22,169 nt of DNA, taken from positions 1 through 22,169 of IMG/VR virus record IMGVR_UViG_3300030109_000996. The stretch is one strand, 5' to 3'. The position numbers and the translations under genes are program-made. Each line of letters begins with the position of its first letter. The first letter of the stretch is position 1. The notes under the pieces are model-generated. The model was not told the origin of the DNA and made no database searches. It was given only the letters and a program-made list of their open reading frames with translations. The stretch comes from a virus. This document shows positions 3,475 through 21,779 of this stretch, in pieces.

Positions 3475-3648
3475 ATGAAATATAAATTCAAAGACAGAGA
3501 ACAATTAATTAAAATGTATAACAGTATTCCTACTCCACACACACACGGAATAGTCCTTGATGGTAATTCTATGATTATAGAATGGGATGGTCAAGAGCCT
3601 GAAGAATGGAAAGAATACAAAATTAAAAAAAATGATAAAAGTAAGTAA
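3475..3648 (+). CDS. Small conserved-looking phage protein (57 aa)
   Basis: ATG lies one base after the preceding TAA and the frame runs to TAA at 3646-3648. The protein begins MKYKFKDREQLIKMYNSIP and has the centre HTHGIVLDGNSMIIEW followed by an acidic and Lys-rich tail. This layout resembles the next gene (INALP, then HKHTIVTLGNIVLEQ, then a Trp), so the two may be divergent copies of one small family. There is no signal peptide or membrane segment. It overlaps the next gene by 17 bases, which suggests translational coupling. Function unknown; position between adhesins and lysis genes suggests a minor virion or accessory role. Confidence 0.6.
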   Translation: MKYKFKDREQLIKMYNSIPTPHTHGIVLDGNSMIIEWDGQEPEEWKEYKIKKNDKSK

Positions 3649-3994
3649 ATACGAATTTGATTCAAAGGATCAAGCAGAGAGTAAAATAAACGCTTTACCG
3701 AGTGTTAAAGATGAAGATGGTAAAGATGTACCCTCTCACAAACATACTATAGTAACGTTAGGTAATATTGTTTTAGAACAGGGCGAATATGATGCTGAGG
3801 GTAAAGAAACAAAAGCACCTGTATTGTCTGACAAGTATCATGTGGACGTACTATGGAAAGACATAGAGGAAACTGATGAAGATGGTAATGTAAGTATAGA
3901 TCATCCTCACGGATGGAAAACTTATGCTCTTGATTTAGATAGCGAGGGTATGCATGGATTTATGGGGGTGTCTTACCAAGAAAATAAAATGTAA
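3632..3994 (+). CDS. Small acidic phage protein (120 aa)
   Basis: The frame can be extended upstream to GTG 3587, but the ATG at 3632 (MIKVSKYEFDSKDQAESK) gives the compact overlap usual in this genome and a more natural N-terminus. Seen: INALPSVKDEDGKDVPSHKH, a beta-rich centre (TIVTLGNIVLEQGEYD), DKYHVDVLWKD, and a Gly/Asp/His-rich end (DHPHGWKTYALDLDSEG). It resembles the 57-aa product just upstream. It ends in a TAATG overlap with the next gene. No enzymatic motif recognised. It may be a small structural or fibre-associated protein, by position only. Confidence 0.6.
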   Translation: MIKVSKYEFDSKDQAESKINALPSVKDEDGKDVPSHKHTIVTLGNIVLEQGEYDAEGKETKAPVLSDKYHVDVLWKDIEETDEDGNVSIDHPHGWKTYALDLDSEGMHGFMGVSYQENKM

Positions 3995-11062: not shown

Positions 11063-11338
11063 ATGGATAATAATAATATTTTGCTTAAAGCAAACGATAT
11101 AGTATTTAAAAGAAAAGAAGAAAAAAAACGCATGTATGGTCCTTTTTCAGAAAGTATGGATCACGCGGCGTGTATAGCTTCAACTATATTAAAAAAAAAT
11201 ATAACAACACAAGATATGTATATTTGCATGACAGCTTTAAAACTATCAAGACAAATGCATAAGCACAAAGAAGATAATTTATTAGATGCCATTGCTTATT
11301 TAGCAGGATTAAATGATTACAATGAAAACAATATTTAA
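11063..11338 (+). CDS. DUF6378-like phage protein
   Basis: 91 aa. Seen: ANDIVFKRKEEKKRMYGPFS (the 'YG.F' motif), then ESMDHAACIASTILKKN, ITTQDMYICMTALKLSRQMH, and KEDNLLDAIAYLAGL. The 'K..R....D...D..AY' end is the hallmark of small helical phage proteins such as DUF6378, which I link by general form to MazG-type all-alpha proteins. It comes just before a hydroxymethylase-like enzyme and a MazG-like enzyme, so a role with nucleotides is possible. No catalytic acidic cluster is clear enough to name a reaction. Confidence 0.6.
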   Translation: MDNNNILLKANDIVFKRKEEKKRMYGPFSESMDHAACIASTILKKNITTQDMYICMTALKLSRQMHKHKEDNLLDAIAYLAGLNDYNENNI

Positions 11339-11978
11339 AAATGCTGAAGAGGTGTTTACACATTATTATAAGCTAATAAACACAAAAGGTTTAGAATATT
11401 GCAATACTAAAGCTTTATTTAATGTAGGTTTTACAATTAAAAATCCTTTACAAAATAGTATAAAAAATAAAGAACGTAATTGGAAATATAATTACGCTGA
11501 GGCAGAGTGGCAATGGTATTTATCAGGTGATCGTAATATAAACAAGTTAGATCAGTTATATGGTAAAGTTCCTAAAATATGGAAATTAATGGCAGATGAA
11601 AAAGGTAATGTTAATTCTAATTACGGTTGGCAATGGCAACGTAAAAAACAAATAGATTATATTGTAAATAAACTAAAACAAAATAATAATACAAGACATG
11701 CTGCAATAAGTATATATGATTGTAAAGAACATAGTTGTTATACAAAAGATACACCTTGTACTTATGCAATACAATTTTATATATTAAACAACAAACTAAA
11801 CATGTCTGTACTAATGAGATCTAATGATTTATGGTATGGCTTCTGTAATGATCAGTATTGTTTTAGTAAACTTCAACAATTAATAGCAAATAAAACAAAT
11901 AAAAAAGTGGGTACATATTACCATTTTGCGCATAACTTACACTTATATAATAACTTTTTAAATAATAACAATGTTTGA
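11322..11978 (+). CDS. Thymidylate-synthase-fold enzyme, dCMP hydroxymethylase-like
   Basis: 218 aa from ATG 11322 (ATG 11313 adds three residues). Seen: ALFNVGFTIKNPL, EAEWQWYLSGDRNI, TRHAAISIYD, TPCTYAIQFYI with the nucleophile Cys146, MRSNDLWYGFCNDQ (Arg166, Ser167, Asp169, Asp177) and HNLHLYNN (His207, Tyr209). By chance the numbering equals that of E. coli ThyA. Position 177, Asn in dUMP-using synthases, is Asp, as in T4-type dCMP hydroxymethylase, where that Asp favours cytosine. It probably uses methylene-tetrahydrofolate to make 5-hydroxymethyl-dCMP. A dUMP-modifying activity is possible. Shorter than ThyA (264) and T4 gp42 (246). Confidence 0.75.
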   Translation: MKTIFKNAEEVFTHYYKLINTKGLEYCNTKALFNVGFTIKNPLQNSIKNKERNWKYNYAEAEWQWYLSGDRNINKLDQLYGKVPKIWKLMADEKGNVNSNYGWQWQRKKQIDYIVNKLKQNNNTRHAAISIYDCKEHSCYTKDTPCTYAIQFYILNNKLNMSVLMRSNDLWYGFCNDQYCFSKLQQLIANKTNKKVGTYYHFAHNLHLYNNFLNNNNV

Positions 11979-12255
11979 ATTAATACGCCAATGGGCAGAA
12001 CAAAAAAAAATACTAGAACACGGTGACAGTAAAACACAATATATAAAGTTACAAGAAGAATCAGGTGAATTAGCCGAGGCAATACTAACTAATAACAAAG
12101 AGGAAATAAAAGACGCTATAGGTGATATGGTTGTTGTATTAACTTCATTAAGTTATTTTAGTGGTTTTACAATAGAAGAAGCAATTGAATCAGCTTATAA
12201 CGAAATAAAAAATAGAGAGGGTAAAATAATCAATAACACATTTGTAAAAAATTAA
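11971..12255 (+). CDS. MazG-like nucleotide pyrophosphohydrolase
   Basis: 94 aa, all-alpha. Metal-binding motif: LQEESGELAEAI (Glu29, Glu30, Glu33) and EIKDAIGDMVVVL (Glu45, Asp48, Asp52), the EExxE...ExxD layout of MazG/dUTPase-like enzymes. It cleaves a nucleoside triphosphate to the monophosphate and pyrophosphate. It overlaps the hydroxymethylase-like gene by 8 bases, so dCTP is an attractive substrate: it would remove dCTP and supply dCMP. Other uses of phage MazG (ppGpp or dNTP balance) remain open. Fold assignment is strong, substrate is inferred. Confidence 0.85.
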   Translation: MFELIRQWAEQKKILEHGDSKTQYIKLQEESGELAEAILTNNKEEIKDAIGDMVVVLTSLSYFSGFTIEEAIESAYNEIKNREGKIINNTFVKN

Positions 12256-13860: not shown

Positions 13861-14127
13861 ATGTACAAATTAGAGAATAGAGGAGGTAGAAGATTAGGCG
13901 CAGGTAGAAAACCTAAAGCTGATGAGCTTAAGTTAGTAGAGAAGTTAGACAATGTAATTGACAACGATATAGCTTTAAAGAAATTAGGCGAACTAATAGC
14001 TAAAGGCGACATACGAGCAATACAAATCTACTTCAACTATAGATACGGAAAACCAAAAGAAAAGATAGACATAAACTCATCAGAGGGTCTTAACATTAGC
14101 TTCAAAGACTTAATAAGGTTTAAGTGA
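13861..14127 (+). CDS. terS: Terminase small subunit-like protein
   Basis: 88 aa. N-terminal GGRRLGAGRKPK (8-19), typical of phage terminase small subunits, then a helical part (KLVEKLDNVIDNDIALKKLG, ELIAKGDIRAIQIYFNYRYG) and the KPKEKIDIN end. It recognises phage DNA and brings it to the large subunit for packaging. It overlaps terL by 4 bases (GTGA), which supports the assignment. It is shorter than most TerS (130-180 aa), so an accessory packaging protein of the DUF5681-type is the main alternative. Confidence 0.72.
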   Translation: MYKLENRGGRRLGAGRKPKADELKLVEKLDNVIDNDIALKKLGELIAKGDIRAIQIYFNYRYGKPKEKIDINSSEGLNISFKDLIRFK

Positions 14128-15329
14128 TAGATATAAACGAGAAATACCAAAAGTTAGCTAACGACACAAGGTATTACATAATCACAGGGGGTAGAGCTTC
14201 AGGTAAATCATTTTCTGTAAATCTAATGCTTGTATTACTAACATACGAAGCAAACCACACAATACTATTTACTCGTTATACATTAACCTCAGCTTACGTT
14301 TCAATCATACCTGAATTTATTGAAAAGATAGAAATGTTAGATAAGTTTGATGATTTTCACATAACTAAAGATGAGATTATTAATTTAAGATCAGGAAGCA
14401 AGATAGTATTTAAAGGAATTAAAACCTCATCAGGAGATCAAACAGCAAACTTAAAATCTATTACAGGTGTTACTACTTGGGTATTAGATGAGGCAGAGGA
14501 ATTAACAGACGAGGGTACATTTGATAAGATAGACCTTACAATAAGAGAAACTAAAAACCAAAACAGAATTATACTTATTCTTAACCCTACAACTAAAGAG
14601 CATTGGATATATCAAAGATTCTTTGAGGATAAAGGAATACAAGAGGGAACTAATACAGAGAAAGACAATACAACTTACATACACACTACTTATCAGGACA
14701 ACATAACCAACTTAAGTAAATCATTCTTAAAGCAAATAGACGACTTAAAAATAAGACGACCACTAAAATACAAGCATGTAATTATGGGTGGATGGTTAGA
14801 TAAAGCTGAGGGTGTTATATTTAATAATTGGACTATCGGTAAATTTAAAAGAGTAGGTGTAAGTGTATGGGGTCAAGACTACGGATTCTCTAATGATCCT
14901 ACAACCCTAATAGAAACTAATATAGACACCTCTAACAAACGAATATACCTAAAGGAATGCTTTTACCTACCAAGCCTTACAACGAGCCAAATAACACGCT
15001 TAAATGAGCAACACGCAAAAGGTGGTTTAATAATAGCTGATAGTGCAGAGCCTCGACTAATAAGTGAGATACGAGCAAAAGGCTGTAATGTTAAACCAAG
15101 CGTAAAAGGTCAAGGTAGTGTAACCTACGGAATATCACTATTACAAGACTATGATCTAATAATAAGCGAGGACAGTATAAACCTTGTTAAAGAACTAAAC
15201 AACTACTCTTGGTTAGAAAGAAAGTCTAATACACCTATAGATAAGTTTAACCATTTAATAGATGCAGTAAGATACGCTGTGAGCTTCCAACTACAAAATC
15301 CTAATAGAGGTAAATACACAATTAGATAG
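14124..15329 (+). CDS. terL: Terminase large subunit
   Basis: 401 aa, GTG start coupled to terS (GTGA). ATPase: Walker A TGGRASGKS (21-29), Walker B TWVLDEAEEL (Asp122, Glu123), coupling motif LILNPTT (151-157). Nuclease: WGQDYGFSNDPT (Asp252), LIIADSAEPRLISEI (Asp306), NHLIDAVRYAV (Asp380). This is the Terminase_3/PBSX type: it cuts concatemers and drives DNA into the prohead. Full length, no missing motif. The order terS-terL is classic. What follows is not a portal gene but tail assembly genes. Confidence 0.95.
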   Translation: MIDINEKYQKLANDTRYYIITGGRASGKSFSVNLMLVLLTYEANHTILFTRYTLTSAYVSIIPEFIEKIEMLDKFDDFHITKDEIINLRSGSKIVFKGIKTSSGDQTANLKSITGVTTWVLDEAEELTDEGTFDKIDLTIRETKNQNRIILILNPTTKEHWIYQRFFEDKGIQEGTNTEKDNTTYIHTTYQDNITNLSKSFLKQIDDLKIRRPLKYKHVIMGGWLDKAEGVIFNNWTIGKFKRVGVSVWGQDYGFSNDPTTLIETNIDTSNKRIYLKECFYLPSLTTSQITRLNEQHAKGGLIIADSAEPRLISEIRAKGCNVKPSVKGQGSVTYGISLLQDYDLIISEDSINLVKELNNYSWLERKSNTPIDKFNHLIDAVRYAVSFQLQNPNRGKYTIR

Positions 15330-15343
15330 TTTCTAAAACTTTA

Positions 15344-15366
15344 TTTTTTTACGTTATATATATATG
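15344..15366 (+). promoter_or_regulatory. T7-ACGTTATATATATATG motif overlapping a start codon
   Basis: Seven T, then ACGTTATATATAT running directly into ATG at 15364. The distance from the A of ACG to the ATG is 13 bases, the same as at 21798. Probably a phage promoter or start signal for a leaderless message. Confidence 0.5.
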
Positions 15367-16014
15367 AAAGTAGAGGTTTATATTCCTGATACTCTTAGCG
15401 AGATTACTTTAGGTCAATATCAAAAGTATCTAAAGATTCAAGAGAACAACGAAGATGAGAACTTCTTAGCTATTAAAATGATAGAAATATTTTGTGGGCT
15501 AAGAGGCGATACAATAATGGCTATGAAAGCTAACAGCATTAAAGACATAACCCTTATACTTACAGAAATGTTTAATGAAAAACCTCAGCTTGTAAAAGAG
15601 TTTAAAATGGGTGGTAGAAATTATGGCTTTGTACCTAAGTTAGAGGATATGACATTTGGAGAGTATATAGACTTAGATACATACATAGGAGACATGAATA
15701 ATATACATAGAGCTATGAATGTTCTATATAGACCAATGAAACAAAAATATCAGGACAGGTATCTTGTTGAGGACTATACAGGGGAAGATCCTGAGAAAAT
15801 GTTAAATATGCCAATGGATGCTGTACTTAGTTCCATACTTTTTTTTTACAATTTAGGGATGGACTTGTCGAAAGCTATGCTGAACTCTTTGGAGAAAGAT
15901 CAGGAAACGAGCTTAGCTCAGTATCTAACTTCGGAAGAAAGTGGGGATGGTATCAATCACTTTTCGGTCTCGCTCAAGGAGATATTAGAAGATTTGAAAA
16001 TATCACTAAACTAA
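15364..16014 (+). CDS. Tail assembly chaperone (gpG-like), zero-frame product
   Basis: 216 aa: MKVEVYIPDTLSEITLGQYQ start, then GDTIMAMKANSIKDITLILT, MGGRNYGFVPKLEDMTFGEY, DLDTYIGD, and a C-terminus LFFYNLGMDLSKAMLNSLEK ending KEILEDLKISLN. I recognise this as a conserved tail-module protein of Bacteroidota phages. Near residues 159-162 the T9 run allows a -1 shift into a second frame (given separately), and the unshifted stop leaves 85 bases to the next gene. By analogy with lambda G/GT it would bind tape measure or tail tube during tail assembly, in a shorter and a longer form. ATG is part of the promoter-like motif. Confidence 0.75.
   Translation: MKVEVYIPDTLSEITLGQYQKYLKIQENNEDENFLAIKMIEIFCGLRGDTIMAMKANSIKDITLILTEMFNEKPQLVKEFKMGGRNYGFVPKLEDMTFGEYIDLDTYIGDMNNIHRAMNVLYRPMKQKYQDRYLVEDYTGEDPEKMLNMPMDAVLSSILFFYNLGMDLSKAMLNSLEKDQETSLAQYLTSEESGDGINHFSVSLKEILEDLKISLN
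15839..15847 (+). promoter_or_regulatory. Slippery T9 run for programmed -1 frameshift
   Basis: Zero-frame codons CTT TTT TTT TAC contain the heptamer T TTT TTT (15840-15846). The -1 frame is closed by TAG at 15828-15830 upstream and open to 16103. A T9 run can also cause RNA polymerase slippage, which would give the same fusion from a fraction of transcripts. No clear downstream stem-loop was recognised. Confidence 0.75.
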
Positions 16015-16103
16015 ATGTACACACCTGTCTTTATGCTTTGAGTTTTATGAAAGAAAAAGCAGAGGTAGAATCAAAGAATATAAAAAGTAAATTCAATAGA
16101 TGA
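15846..16103 (+). CDS. Tail assembly chaperone -1 frame extension (gpGT-like T domain)
   Basis: After the slip the frame codes for 85 residues, LQFRDGLVESYAELFGERSG, then GRKWGWYQSLFGLAQGDI, RRFENITKLNVHTCLYALSF and MKEKAEVESKNIK. 'KWGWYQSL.GLAQGD..RF' with the Glu/Lys helix is a conserved pattern of Bacteroidota phage tail genes. The stop at 16101-16103 overlaps the next ATG (ATGA). The full fusion has 161 + 85 = 246 aa. Between 15849 and 16014 both frames code, and the DNA is visibly richer in G and C than the rest. The zero-frame C-terminus is also of a familiar form, so both products are probably made. Confidence 0.8.
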   Translation, partial: LQFRDGLVESYAELFGERSGNELSSVSNFGRKWGWYQSLFGLAQGDIRRFENITKLNVHTCLYALSFMKEKAEVESKNIKSKFNR

Positions 16104-16573
16104 GCAATCAAGGAGTAAGAGGCTATTACCAAATAACAGATACTATTAAGACTAATCTCTTAACAGATGAAAATGTCAATACTGTAACAACAGGCGATAT
16201 ATTTGACATAGACTTATCTAAGCAAACAATATTTCCTCTAAGCCATATAATAGTAAACAACGTAACTATACAAGAACAAGTCCTCAACTTTAACATTACA
16301 GTAATGTGCATGGATATAGTAGATCAATCTAAGGATGAGGTAACAGACGTATTTAGAGGCAACAACAACGAGCAAGATATTATAAACACACAATTAGCTG
16401 TAGCAAATAAATTAGTAGGTCTGCTAAGTAAAGGAACACTATACCAAAACAAATATCAGTTAGAGGGAGATGCTTCATGTGAGTTTTTTTATGAAAGGTT
16501 TGAAAATGAAATGGCAGGTGTAGCTTGTACGTTTAATGTATTAATCGCAAATGATATAAACGTATGCAGTTAA
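16100..16573 (+). CDS. Tail terminator/neck-like protein
   Basis: 157 aa. Starts in ATGA overlap with the frameshifted gene. Seen: GVRGYYQITDTIKTNLLTDE, the beta hairpin TTGDIFDIDLSKQTIFPLSH, NNVTIQEQVLNFNITVMCMD, then IVDQSKDEVTDVFRGNNNEQ, DIINTQLAVANKLVGLL and a C-terminal strand ERFENEMAGVACTFNVLI. This order fits tail terminator proteins of Bacteroidota siphoviruses, which cap the tail tube and join head to tail. Overlaps the next gene by 10 bases. Role by family pattern and gene order. Confidence 0.68.
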   Translation: MSNQGVRGYYQITDTIKTNLLTDENVNTVTTGDIFDIDLSKQTIFPLSHIIVNNVTIQEQVLNFNITVMCMDIVDQSKDEVTDVFRGNNNEQDIINTQLAVANKLVGLLSKGTLYQNKYQLEGDASCEFFYERFENEMAGVACTFNVLIANDINVCS

Positions 16574-17076
16574 ATAGAGTAAAAAGAGAGTTAAATAGAT
16601 TTGCTAAGTATGTTATTAAACAAGCAAGAACAAACCTCACAAAGAAGCGTAGAAACGTAAGCAAAAAATTATATAATAGCTTAACTTATAAAATTAATGA
16701 AACACCTGATGCAACAACACTAACTTTCTTTATGGAAGAATATGGTTATTATCAAGATCAAGGTGTAAGTGGTAAAAAGCAAAAATACGGAACACCTTTT
16801 AGTTTTAAATCTAAGATGCCTCCTGCTTCTGCTTTTAGTCAATGGGTTATTAGAAAAGGTATAAAAGGAACAAGAGACAAAAAAGGTAGATTTGTGAAAA
16901 GAAAAAGTTTACAATACTTAATAGCAAGAAGCATATTTAACAAAGGTATAAAACCAAGTTTATTTTTTACTGCACCTTTTGAAAGAGCTTATGACAGATT
17001 AAAAGTTGATTTACCACAAAAATTAGCTGAGGACACAGACAACAATTTTAAATTTTTATTTAACGTAGAGGAATAA
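16564..17076 (+). CDS. HK97 gp10-like tail completion protein
   Basis: 170 aa. Basic N-terminal helix (VKRELNRFAKYVIKQARTNL), then KKLYNSLTYKINETPDATTL, FFMEEYGYYQDQGVSGKKQK with KYGTPFSFKSKMPP, ASAFSQWVIRKGIKGTRDKK and a C-terminal helix pair. 'YG.Y.D.G..G....' after a Lys-rich helix is the form of HK97 gp10/neck proteins that complete the tail. It is next to the terminator and before the tail tube. The start ATG overlaps the previous stop by 10 bases. Confidence 0.62.
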   Translation: MQLNRVKRELNRFAKYVIKQARTNLTKKRRNVSKKLYNSLTYKINETPDATTLTFFMEEYGYYQDQGVSGKKQKYGTPFSFKSKMPPASAFSQWVIRKGIKGTRDKKGRFVKRKSLQYLIARSIFNKGIKPSLFFTAPFERAYDRLKVDLPQKLAEDTDNNFKFLFNVEE

Positions 17077-18035
17077 TGGCACTTATATATTTAAGAACTC
17101 CGTACTTTGTTACAATTACAACTGCATCGCATTTGTCAGCTAAAATGCAGCTTACAGTAGATGGTACACTTAGATACACAATACTTAAAAACGCAACAAG
17201 CAATAGAACAGTATTTGAAATATCTTCATTAGCTAAAGACTATTATAATCCTGATTATGGTGGTACTACAGGCTCAACATTTGATACAGTAGCTATATCT
17301 TATGTTATAACAACTTATACAGGGTTAGATGGTACAGGCACAGGCACAGCGCAAGGTGCAGTAACACATACAGGCTTTTATGGTTATAGTTATTTCTCTC
17401 AAGGCACAGCAGGTAATGATATTGATTCTGATGATGAGGAACTAACAAACACAGGGGATTCAAGAATTATTTATTTACCTGAAAACACAGCAGGTTTTGC
17501 TTGGGATATGAATAGTGGCTCAACTTCTAAAACTACAATAAGCACTTCAGCTACAAGCGTAACCTCAGCTTCAGGTAATTACACTTGGACTATTGAAAGA
17601 ATATGTAGTGCTAAATATACACCTATACAAATGAGGTTTATAAATAGAAAAGGCGCACCACAAGATCAGTATTTCTTTTTAAAGTCTGTAGAAAGCATGA
17701 ACACACAAAGTGAAACATTTAAAAGAAATATATTTACTTATTCCTCATCAAACTATAATGCACAAGACCATCAAACAACTGTATTTAACAAAACAGGCAG
17801 AAAACGATACACATTAAACACAGATTATTTAGCAGAGGCTTATAACGAAGTAATGGAAGATATACTATTAAGCGAATATGTTTGGATAAAATATAATACT
17901 ACAGATGGTAACAAATGGAGACCTGTAATAGTAAATACAAGCTCTTTATTAAAAAAGACATCATTAAATGATAAGTTAATTCAATACACATTAGAGGTAG
18001 AGGAAGCAAACGATATTATCAATAACATAGTATGA
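17076..18035 (+). CDS. Structural tail protein (tube or tip)
   Basis: 319 aa, one-base overlap with the gene before. Beta-rich, Thr/Ser/Gly-rich: PYFVTITTASHLSAKMQLTV, a low-complexity GLDGTGTGTAQGAVTHTGF, DSRIIYLPENTAGFAWDMN, then a conserved C-terminal part (PIQMRFINRKGAPQDQYFFL, SETFKRNIFTYS, DYLAEAYNEVMEDILLSEYV, DKLIQYTLEVEEANDIINNI). I link the 'N..GA.Q...F' and 'N.KL..Y.LE...A...INNI' motifs to tail structural proteins of Bacteroidota phages. Whether it is the tube monomer or a baseplate part is not clear. Confidence 0.6.
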   Translation: MALIYLRTPYFVTITTASHLSAKMQLTVDGTLRYTILKNATSNRTVFEISSLAKDYYNPDYGGTTGSTFDTVAISYVITTYTGLDGTGTGTAQGAVTHTGFYGYSYFSQGTAGNDIDSDDEELTNTGDSRIIYLPENTAGFAWDMNSGSTSKTTISTSATSVTSASGNYTWTIERICSAKYTPIQMRFINRKGAPQDQYFFLKSVESMNTQSETFKRNIFTYSSSNYNAQDHQTTVFNKTGRKRYTLNTDYLAEAYNEVMEDILLSEYVWIKYNTTDGNKWRPVIVNTSSLLKKTSLNDKLIQYTLEVEEANDIINNIV

Positions 18036-20092
18036 AACGTGAACTGCAACTATATATACAAGATACAAGGGTTGATTTATTTAAAGACGAAACAGTTAGT
18101 CTTACAGATACAATCCAAAATGTTCGTGATATTGCAAAAATCTTTACAACTTTTACAAAGACTTTTACGCTACCTGCATCTCAAGTAAACAACAAACTAT
18201 TTAAACACTACTATAACTTTGATATTCTTAACACTTCTTTAACTAAGAGTGCATTTGATGCTCGTAAGAAAGTTACAGCAAGAATTGAACTAAACCACAT
18301 ACCATTTAAAGATGGCAAAATAAAATTAGAGGGTGTAGATATAAAAGGCAATCAACCCTCAGCATATCGAGTTACATTCTTTGGTAACACAGTTGATTTA
18401 AAAGACATAATAGGAGAAGATAAGCTAAACGTACTTACATCTCTTAATTCACTAAACAAAAACTTTGATTCAAGCAACATAAAAACATACTTAGAAAGCA
18501 ATCCTGCATCTAACGATATTATAGTACCTCTTATAACACACACACAAAGATTATATTACGATAGTGGAGATACTACACATAACACAGGTAACTTAGACCC
18601 ATCAAGTAATAAACATGGTGTAAGATGGGATAATTTAAAATACGCTATAAGAGTACACAATATAATAGAAGCTATACAAACACAATATAGTCTTACATTC
18701 TCAAGTGATTTCTTTACAGAAACAAGCAACGATCAATACTCTAAGTTGTTTATGTGGCTACATAGAAAAAAAGGTGTAGTAGAAACAGGAGATCAAATAC
18801 AAAACTTTCCGAGTATAGTAGATGGATGGAGTGCAGGTGTAGGTACATCAGGCTATACACAAATGGTTAATACCTCAACTCTTAGATTAACAGAGGATGC
18901 AGAAACCTTTGGAACTGCTTTCACTTTGACATTAACAAGTCCAACAGGTACTTATGATATACTTATAGAAAAAGATGGTGTAAGTTATTATTCCGAAAAT
19001 GGTATATCAACTTCTAAGACTATCAACCTATACTCGTTAAATGGTGGTGTAGCTGAGGCAGGAGACTATACAGTAACTATAACAGTTACATCAGCAGTAA
19101 CATTTAGTAATATAAGATGGTCAATAACTACAGACGAATTTGGCACAGTATTAACAGACCAATTTAACACAAGTAGTTATACAGCAGCAGCAACATTTGA
19201 ATTTGTTATAACAAGTCAAATACCTGAAATGAAAGTTATAGATTTTTTATCAGGTATATTTAAAATGTTTAATCTTACAGCTTTTGTAAACAATGCAGGA
19301 ACTATAGTAGTTAAAACTTTAGATAGTTATTACTCAGGTGGAACAACATACGACATAACAGAATATGTAAATATAGAATCAGGTCAAGTAAACGTAGCTT
19401 TACCATTTAAAGAAATACAATTTGGTTATGCAGACACAGATAGTTTCTTTGCAGCTATACACAATCAACTATTTAACAAAGAATGGGGTACATCTGACTA
19501 TAACAACAATGAATCTTTAGATGGTGGTTTATATAAAGTAGAATTACCATTCGGACACATGAAATTTGAAAGACTTGTAGATATACACGATTCAAGTTCT
19601 ACAACTACACAATGGGGTTGGAGTGCAGATGACAACCAAGATTCATACATAGGAAAACCTGTATTGTTTTATCCTATATATACTTCTGTGGGAAGCAAGA
19701 CTATTAGTTTTGTAACTATAATAAATGAGGATCAAACATTTCATACAGACGTAGAAATTACAGGCTCTATTAATATGCCAAGTAATTCTGTAGCGTTTTC
19801 ATCAGGCACAAGTACAGCAAATATAAACTTCTTTAATGAACTAAACGAATACACAGGCGATGATACATTTACAGGCACATTATTCCAAAACTTTTATTCT
19901 ACTTATATAAGCCAAGTATTTGATAGTAAGAATCGACTAAGCAAAATAAGAGCAAGGTTACCAATGAGTGTATTGTTAAATTATTCATTAGCAGATAAAT
20001 TTAGAATATCAGGAACAGAGTATAGGATAAACAGCATAACAACAAATCTAACAACAGGCGAAGCAGATATAGAACTATTAAACGTATTATGA
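18032..20092 (+). CDS. Tail baseplate/tip hub-like protein
   Basis: 686 aa, 4-base overlap with the gene before. Conserved start MKRELQLYIQDTRVDLFKDE, then NVRDIAKIFTTFTKTFTLPA and KVTARIELNHIPFKDGKIKL. The centre has jelly-roll-like, Thr-rich repeats (TFTLTLTSPTGTYDILIEKD). Next MKVIDFLSGIFKMFNLTAFV (hub-like helix) and IVVKTLDSYYSGGT with DITEYVNIES. The end is SLADKFRISGTEYRINSITT, NLTTGEADIELLNVL, like the last strands of tail tip hubs. It probably forms the distal tail complex. No lysozyme or peptidase motif was seen. Confidence 0.62.
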   Translation: MKRELQLYIQDTRVDLFKDETVSLTDTIQNVRDIAKIFTTFTKTFTLPASQVNNKLFKHYYNFDILNTSLTKSAFDARKKVTARIELNHIPFKDGKIKLEGVDIKGNQPSAYRVTFFGNTVDLKDIIGEDKLNVLTSLNSLNKNFDSSNIKTYLESNPASNDIIVPLITHTQRLYYDSGDTTHNTGNLDPSSNKHGVRWDNLKYAIRVHNIIEAIQTQYSLTFSSDFFTETSNDQYSKLFMWLHRKKGVVETGDQIQNFPSIVDGWSAGVGTSGYTQMVNTSTLRLTEDAETFGTAFTLTLTSPTGTYDILIEKDGVSYYSENGISTSKTINLYSLNGGVAEAGDYTVTITVTSAVTFSNIRWSITTDEFGTVLTDQFNTSSYTAAATFEFVITSQIPEMKVIDFLSGIFKMFNLTAFVNNAGTIVVKTLDSYYSGGTTYDITEYVNIESGQVNVALPFKEIQFGYADTDSFFAAIHNQLFNKEWGTSDYNNNESLDGGLYKVELPFGHMKFERLVDIHDSSSTTTQWGWSADDNQDSYIGKPVLFYPIYTSVGSKTISFVTIINEDQTFHTDVEITGSINMPSNSVAFSSGTSTANINFFNELNEYTGDDTFTGTLFQNFYSTYISQVFDSKNRLSKIRARLPMSVLLNYSLADKFRISGTEYRINSITTNLTTGEADIELLNVL

Positions 20093-20226
20093 TAAAAAAC
20101 ATATTAGAGATGCTACCTTATGTAGAGGGAGGATCAGAACTTATAGACATAGCAAAGGGCAAATACAAATACCCTGAGACATTTAAAGAAACATTTAAAA
20201 CAATAAAGGAATGGCGCAAAAATTAA
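20089..20226 (+). CDS. Small protein before the tape measure (45 aa)
   Basis: ATGA overlap with the tail tip gene and 16-base overlap with the next. Sequence MIKNILEMLPYVEGGSELID, then IAKGKYKYPETFKETFKTIK and EWRKN. Tight packing on both sides and a sensible helical sequence support translation. Function unknown; may be a tail accessory or coupling peptide. Confidence 0.55.
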   Translation: MIKNILEMLPYVEGGSELIDIAKGKYKYPETFKETFKTIKEWRKN

Positions 20227-21779
20227 TAATGGAGTTAGAGGCTCGTACAGACAAAGCCGAAAAAAACATAGAAAACATAAACACCGATGTAAAAAAGATT
20301 AATAAGAATCTTGAAAAAACTGAAAAAGGTTTTGAAGGTGTAGAGAAAGCAACTAAAGACACAGCTAAGGGTGTTCGTAAAATAGGCACTACTTTAAAAG
20401 CTATTGGTATAGGTCTTTTATTAGCAGCGTTTACAAAACTAAAAGATGTATTCCAAGAAAATCAAAAAGTGTTAGATGGTTTTAATACAACATTTGAATT
20501 TTTGTCTTTAGCATTTAATGACTTGTTTAATTTTTTAGATTCCAACATAGGAACAGTAGTAGGTTATTTTAAAAGCATATTTGAAGATCCTGTACAATCT
20601 ATAAAAGATTTTGGACAGGCAATATTAGATAATCTTATAGAAAGAGTTAAATCGTCATTAGAAGCCTTTGGTTTTTTAGCAAGTGCAGTACAAAAAGTAT
20701 TTAGTGGAGACTTTGCAGGTGCATTAAACGATGTAAAAGAAGCAGGAAAAGAAATGGTAGATGCTGTTACAGGTGTAGATGATTCATTTGATAAAATAGT
20801 AGAGGTAACACCTAAATTAGTTAAAGGTATTACAAATTACGCTAAATCTACTTATGATTCTGCTAAGGCTAATGTCGAGTTACAAAAAACAGCAGAATTA
20901 GCAATAGCACAAAATAGAATTATTTTAGAACAAAAAGATAGAGAGGCTGAATCATTAAGACAAATAAGAGATAACGAATTGCTTACAATAGATGAAAGAA
21001 TAGAGGCTAACAATAAATTAGGGGAAGTTCTTAAAGAACAAGAAAGGTTAATGATTGCTAATGCAGATGCAGTTATAGCAGCAGCACAAGCACAGTTTGA
21101 TAAAAATGACAGCGATGCAAACCAAATAGCATTATTAGAAGCTAAAGCAGAAAAGGAAGCTGTACTTGCACAAATAACAGGTTTTAGATCAGAACAGTTA
21201 GCAAACCAAAACTCTTTATTAAGAGAAAACATAGAAATAGAAAGAGAAGTAGCTGAAGCTAAAACTACAATTCAAGAAATGGCTATGGACACAGCAGCAA
21301 GAGGTTTTCAGTTGCTTGGTAAAATGGCAGGTAAAAATAGAGCTTTACAAGCAGCAGCAATCATAGGAGAAAACGCAGCAGGTATTGCAAAACAAATTAT
21401 ACAAACTAAAGCAGCAAATGCAGCAGTAACTGCAAAATATGCACTATTGCCGGGAGGTATGGCATTAGCAAAAGCAGAAAAAACTCTTAACAATATATCA
21501 TTAGGTTTAGGTATTGCAGGGTCAGTATTAGCAACATCCTCAGCATTAAAAGCTCTTAAAGCAGGTGGTAGCGTATCTTCTCCAAGCGTATCGACATCAG
21601 AGCCTACTGCACCACAAGCACCTGCATTTAACATAGTAGGTCAAAGTACAACAGACCAATTAGCTGATGTTATAGCAGGACAAGCAGGTCAGCCTACAAG
21701 AGCTTATGTAGTTTCTAATGATGTAAGCACAGCACAAGAGCTTGATAGAAATATTATACAAGGGGCAAGTATAGGATAA
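20211..21779 (+). CDS. Tail tape measure protein
   Basis: 522 aa. Starts MAQKLIMELEARTDKAEKNI with a coiled coil (INTDVKKINKNLEKTEKGFE), a Gly-Leu rich membrane-like helix (IGTTLKAIGIGLLLAAFTKL), long Ala/Glu/Gln-rich helices (AELAIAQNRIILEQKDREAE, IAAAQAQFDKNDSDANQIAL), a Gly/Ala TM-like stretch (IIGENAAGIAKQI, GLGIAGSVLATSSAL), and the C-terminus PAFNIVGQSTTDQLADVIAG, then ELDRNIIQGASIG, familiar from this family. It sets tail length and is injected with DNA. At about 0.15 nm per residue it would fit a tail of some 75 nm. Followed by a promoter-like motif and the protease. Confidence 0.8.
   Translation: MAQKLIMELEARTDKAEKNIENINTDVKKINKNLEKTEKGFEGVEKATKDTAKGVRKIGTTLKAIGIGLLLAAFTKLKDVFQENQKVLDGFNTTFEFLSLAFNDLFNFLDSNIGTVVGYFKSIFEDPVQSIKDFGQAILDNLIERVKSSLEAFGFLASAVQKVFSGDFAGALNDVKEAGKEMVDAVTGVDDSFDKIVEVTPKLVKGITNYAKSTYDSAKANVELQKTAELAIAQNRIILEQKDREAESLRQIRDNELLTIDERIEANNKLGEVLKEQERLMIANADAVIAAAQAQFDKNDSDANQIALLEAKAEKEAVLAQITGFRSEQLANQNSLLRENIEIEREVAEAKTTIQEMAMDTAARGFQLLGKMAGKNRALQAAAIIGENAAGIAKQIIQTKAANAAVTAKYALLPGGMALAKAEKTLNNISLGLGIAGSVLATSSALKALKAGGSVSSPSVSTSEPTAPQAPAFNIVGQSTTDQLADVIAGQAGQPTRAYVVSNDVSTAQELDRNIIQGASIG

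Follow-up and report, generated by a model that had tools for sequence, protein, structure and literature searches.

The gene that follows the terminase large subunit gene in the 22-kb record of a Bacteroidetes-type tailed phage (IMG/VR, IMGVR_UViG_3300030109_000996) almost certainly carries a programmed -1 frameshift, by which it is predicted to encode a short protein of 216 residues and a long one of about 246 residues. The model that we propose, and which, with all its steps taken together, we are somewhat inclined to accept, derives two proteins with a common stretch of 161 N-terminal residues from this single gene of the tail or neck region. Straight reading of the message would yield the 216-residue protein. 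The slippage of RNA polymerase on a run of nine T's would provide a fraction of the messages with one additional U (or deprive them of two), and the ordinary translation of these altered messages would pass into the -1 frame and give a protein of about 246 residues with a conserved helical domain (KWGWY...LAxGD) at its end. The ratio of the short to the long protein would be set by the fixed length of the run, and the pair would help tail assembly, by analogy with the G/GT and E/E+E' pairs. We infer that both products are made.

Layout of the gene and conservation of its frame junction

The features of the locus are collected in Table 1, in the coordinates of the window, i.e. the whole stretch of 22,169 nucleotides that was analysed. 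The figures given in the earlier note for the T9 run, its codons, the TAG, the stops, the ATGA overlap, the 85 residues and the 85 bases are all right on direct reading of the sequence. Past the TAG, the -1 frame meets no stop until the TGA at 16101-16103, a stop overlapped by the ATG at 16100, and a shift at codon 161 would join 161 and 85 residues into a long product of 246 residues. The zero-frame stop at 16014 leaves a gap of 85 bases before the next start at 16100. The dual-coding stretch had also been described as richer in G and C than its surroundings, and it is (38.9%, versus 32.6% before the slip and 28.1% after).

Table 1. Features of the frameshift locus and of its neighbourhood.
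Feature	Position	Strand	Remarks
Terminase large subunit gene	14124..15329	+	Terminase_3, 3.8e-34
Zero-frame ORF, predicted short product	15364..16014	+	216 aa; residues 1-161 common to the predicted long product
TAG closing the -1 frame just 5' of the slip	15828..15830	+	
-1 frame ORF	15831..16103	+	85 codons past the slip, predicted C-terminal domain of the long product; motif GRKWGWYQSLFGLAQGD
T9 slip run	15839..15847	+	frame 0 reads CTT TTT TTT TAC
In-phase heptamer T_TTT_TTT	15840..15846	+	possible ribosomal tandem-slip site; 267/267 distinct -1 proteins
Dual-coding stretch	15848..16014	+	purifying selection on both frames (codon-position entropy)
Overlap (ATGA) between the -1 stop and the next start codon	16100..16103	+	
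Downstream gene, phrog_30964	16100..16573	+	unknown function; homologue P12024L_42
Neck or tail-completion-like gene, phrog_29822	16564..17076	+	homologue P12024L_43
Tape-measure-like gene	20211..21779	+	phrog_4200 tape measure, 4.8e-5; phrog_32985, 3.4e-6

The nearest cultured relatives of the frameshift gene are the Nonlabens phages P12024L and P12024S. The frameshift gene is separated from the tape-measure-like ORF by four genes (16100-20092), including the phrog_30964 gene, whose product may be called tail-terminator-like by inference only, the neck or tail-completion-like gene and two genes of the structural region. P12024L_43 has a weak match (4.2e-4) to phrog_5, 'tail completion or Neck1', and phrog_32985 corresponds to P12024L_50, which matches the tape measure family phrog_9483 at 5.6e-12. 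The gene order is alike in the window, in P12024L and in a prophage of the bacterium G217. In this prophage (L424, L438), TerL, the frameshift gene, neck-like genes, a tape-measure-like gene, an XkdF-like protease, a probable capsid and a probable portal were recognised, the tail module being placed before the head module.

The second domain lies in the -1 frame and is preceded by an uninterrupted T run in 377 of the 377 loci that hold both domains, a count that is not one of independent cases, the loci being related and some of them being overlapping stretches of one contig, so that the 286 distinct sites to which they reduce, or the 41 clusters, less than 60% identical in their -1 domains, that these form, are the safer figures. 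The first 80 relatives from IMG/VR (60-100% identical) all have the T9, with its phase unchanged, and two open frames; their -1 frame runs beyond the zero-frame stop and mostly closes in an ATGA shared with the next gene, the exception being one contig that ends first. The same T9 is found in P12024L (31% identity), where the -1 frame has the KWGWY motif, and the run and the -1 relation are kept in the prophages L168, L169 and the very distant L170 (E 8e-8). The motif [WYF]GW lies in the -1 frame at 285 of 292 distinct sites, and the FF pair is written TTT TTT at every slip site, as against 43% of such pairs elsewhere in these phages. The alignment of relatives proposed at the outset as a check has the T run and both frames kept throughout, and a search within the gene family for an interrupted -1 frame, a lost T run or two frames joined by an indel found none of them.

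The openness of the -1 frame was compared with that obtained by chance. After synonymous recoding of the zero frame, the -1 frame stays open over the overlap in 0.2% of the trials, and none of 3455 equal windows in the other genes of the 22-kb window is open in -1. In 167 sequences, the third-position entropy of frame 0 is 0.70 in the overlap, down from 1.28 before the slip; for the -1 frame the overlap has 0.68, down from 1.09 past the zero-frame stop. This decrease in both frames indicates that both proteins are constrained across the overlap, a constraint that fits the higher GC content there, which exceeds that of the upstream part in 161 of the 167 relatives. The programmed -1 frameshift claimed in the earlier note is thus upheld by the invariable -1 relation, by a T run that always retains at least eight residues and by the selection acting on both frames.

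Level at which the slip would occur

The earlier note had attributed the shift to the ribosome. That part of its reading is not established, and the run-length statistics lean towards slippage of RNA polymerase. A run of nine residues conserved in length among homologues has been proposed as a criterion for purposeful transcriptional slippage (Baranov et al. 2005, PMC1088944). Here, the run is T9 in 328 loci, T10 in 48 and T8 in one, none being shorter, so that 376 of the 377 loci keep nine or ten residues of one base. When the 5' and 3' extensions of the heptamer are combined, the total reaches at least nine T's at 285 of the 286 distinct sites. Where no T precedes the heptamer on its 5' side, two T's are added on its 3' side in 7 of 8 sites, versus 23 of 259 otherwise, a difference that is indicative only since the sites are related; the three sites devoid of a 3' T have two 5' T's each. 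An amino-acid constraint (I/L/V before, Y/W after) accounts for part of the run length.

The second feature pointing to transcription is the avoidance of long runs in other genes regardless of phase, for which the counts observed in 733 kb of other ORFs from these phages were compared with those expected from synonymous shuffling. The in-phase T7 heptamer occurs 48 times for 90.1 expected and the out-of-phase T7 35 times for 76.2, T8 occurs 3 times for 33.9 and T9 or longer 3 times for 32.6, and T8 in phase 0, which holds no in-phase heptamer, occurs once for 16.6. T runs of eight and longer are in this way about tenfold depleted whatever their phase, and the in-phase T7 is no more avoided than the out-of-phase one. 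A runs are less avoided in the same ORFs (A8, 70 observed for 124 expected, or about twofold depleted; A9, 13 for 50), from which we deduce that the avoidance is strand-specific and reflects a pressure at the level of the RNA strand and not of DNA replication alone, although the avoidance of long T runs may be partly due to their mutability. In the bacterium that carries prophage L168 (G217), the in-phase T7 is not avoided (72 for 50.7), and the figures for T8, T9 and T10 (34 for 37, 5 for 10.2 and 0 for 4.5, respectively) place the beginning of the avoidance at T9-T10, with a lesser strength than in the phages.

Since any T9 holds an in-phase T_TTT_TTT, programmed -1 frameshifting by the ribosome, through the tandem slippage of tRNA-Phe on U_UUU_UUU, has to be weighed as well, and we find it possible but somewhat doubtful. 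The in-phase heptamer of the X_XXY_YYZ type that ribosomal frameshifting calls for is present at the junction in 267 of 267 distinct sites, the shift is always -1, and P2-like tail genes use T6G, T7G and T7C for -1 frameshifts that are taken as translational (PMC3931495). However, other genes of these phages often contain the heptamer, which is no more avoided there than the out-of-phase T7, and the run never comes down to T7 at the sites. The A-site codon is TTT in 267 of 267 distinct sites, whereas TTC, which makes up 19% of the Phe codons and would still give a valid ribosomal heptamer, is absent from this position. In addition, in E. coli U_UUU_UUU is reported to shift much less readily than A_AAA_AAG (PMC5009743), a search for a conserved downstream stem-loop found none, with no excess of energy over the shuffled sequences, and a search of Rfam for a stimulator returned no match. 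Transcriptional slippage is favoured over ribosomal slippage because it is the length of the run and not the phase of a heptamer that is constrained, because neither a T7 nor an A-site TTC occurs and because no conserved downstream structure was found; judged from these sequence data, the slip would probably take place during transcription.

Slippage by RNA polymerase would bring the gene close to the A9 of Thermus dnaX, to the IS elements with A9 and to Shigella mxiE, in which a conserved run of nine is avoided in other genes, as it is here (PMC1088944). These cases of transcriptional realignment involve A9, unlike the T9 of the present phage tail-region gene, and no comparable transcriptional slippage in a phage tail gene was found in the literature searched.

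Other homopolymeric runs were noted in these phages. A neck-like gene of 172-177 codons has a T9 or a T8 at a matching place (codons 132-134) in three loci (L066, about 5596; L071, about 2642; L305, about 4614), where it encodes PSFFFTK in the first two. It is among the very few other intragenic long T runs in these phages, and is possibly a second slip site or the consequence of a mere amino-acid constraint. In the window, A9 runs at 11191-11199 (ORF 11063-11338) and 12002-12010 (ORF 11971-12255) are possible slippage sites made of the other base, and two ORFs overlap in different frames at 3475-3994 around an A8 run at 3625.

Candidate role in tail assembly

The zero-frame product matches phrog_32199, the P12024L_40 family of unknown function, with an E value of 9.6e-24, and searches of Pfam, NCBIfam and the PDB returned no relative of the gene product. 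Its AF2 model (pLDDT 81.7, pTM 0.73) is mostly helical with two beta hairpins, the slip point being located inside the last long helix (residues 151-190); the -1 domain alone gives a helical model of low confidence (pLDDT 61). The fold search of the PDB with the zero-frame model gave no match, which does not show a new fold. That of BFVD gave 38 matches below 1e-3, none of them functionally named, and a weaker one (E 0.011, prob 0.99) to an entry named tail assembly chaperone.

The comparison with lambda G/GT rests on two nested products, the long one having an extra C-terminal domain (PMC5009743), and differs in the position, size and sequence of the gene; the roles of the predicted products here would be transposed by analogy. 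A frameshift at the 3' end that would generate a short and a C-terminally extended product is common to both; G/GT-type genes, flanked by those of the major tail protein and of the tape measure, stand directly upstream of the latter, a location that is not that of the present gene, which follows TerL. We do not class it as a member of the G/GT-type chaperone family, since the tape measure gene is not its neighbour and no relation to a known family was found, and a G/GT-like task is plausible in view of the two-product layout. P2 gene E/E+E' and the P2-like tail genes offer another parallel: there too a tail-region gene has, close to its 3' end, a T run on which the frame shifts by -1, a C-terminal extension distinguishes the long product from the short one, and the -1 ORF overlaps the next gene. 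Nevertheless, the P2-like runs are T6-T7 as opposed to T9-T10 here, P2 E/E' is directly upstream of the tape measure gene while the present gene is not, and no sequence relation between the two was detected.

A real frameshift, occurring by either slip mechanism, could also serve a protein that is a neck or connector component and not a tail chaperone. The position of the gene between TerL and the neck-like genes, as well as that of its single-ORF cousin in Ingeline, after the portal and the adaptor, would suit such a component, which we nonetheless regard as the less probable assignment: short and long products with a common N-terminus are a hallmark of tail chaperones, and the BFVD entry resembling the zero-frame model carries that name. 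Genomic context and analogy thus speak for the participation of the pair in tail assembly, which is a reasonably likely role.

The relatives of Ingeline show that the first domain also exists in another arrangement. The Duneviridae proteins of Flavobacterium phage 2A (293 aa), laban6-1 (301 aa) and Cellulophaga phage Ingeline (301 aa) have a first domain homologous to that of the frameshift gene (hhalign E 3.5e-7, prob 93) and a tape measure gene nearby, but, unlike the gene studied here, they are encoded by one uninterrupted ORF with no frameshift. The profile match of the -1 domain with the C-terminal half of the Duneviridae protein covers only 12 columns (E 0.46) and is not significant. In Flavobacterium phage 6H (L235, KC959568; 10045-10927, minus strand), the homologue is in pieces lying in different frames. 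It was rejected as a second case of frameshift, the ORF being broken differently and its near-identical relatives 2A, 23T and FPSV having one open ORF; the break in 6H looks like a record error.

Annotation of the two pieces and significance

The Nonlabens phages P12024L and P12024S (Inhavirus) have the same gene, with the same T9, frame relation and neighbours and a shorter zero-frame tail, and it is annotated there as two hypothetical proteins belonging to two PHROG families (phrog_32199 and phrog_38404), which bears out the remark of the earlier note that the second domain would escape standard ORF calling. The P12024L annotation even endows the -1 ORF with a start of its own (P12024L_41), as would befit a separate gene expressed without fusion. 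We consider such a gene very improbable, as no ATG, GTG or TTG occurs in the window over the interval that separates the upstream stop from the conserved motif, this interval is without ATG at 278 of 292 distinct sites, the frame junction retains its T run and the two domains always occur together. As for a sequencing indel, a pseudogene or a phase-variable DNA tract, which the error-prone and mutable nature of homopolymers might suggest, it is practically dismissed by the selection on both frames and by the lack of any in-frame fused variant among the 377 loci, which come from many metagenomes and a cultured phage.

The gene family is unannotated and split in the databases, its second domain being either overlooked or entered as a hypothetical protein of its own, and a tail-region protein of a very common marine Bacteroidetes phage group has so far been invisible. 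It is conceivable, and we advance it tentatively, that Bacteroidetes phages and prophages forming a large clade owe the long form of a tail-assembly protein to slippage of RNA polymerase on a conserved T9, and not to a ribosomal frameshift as in lambda and P2. The large set of homologues makes the level of the slip directly testable. For dnaX, the comparison of Thermus with E. coli has already shown that a ratio of short and long products can be reached by more than one route. If the slip is transcriptional here, the trick by which lambda and P2 set the ratio of their short and long products would have been reached in these phages by a different molecular route.
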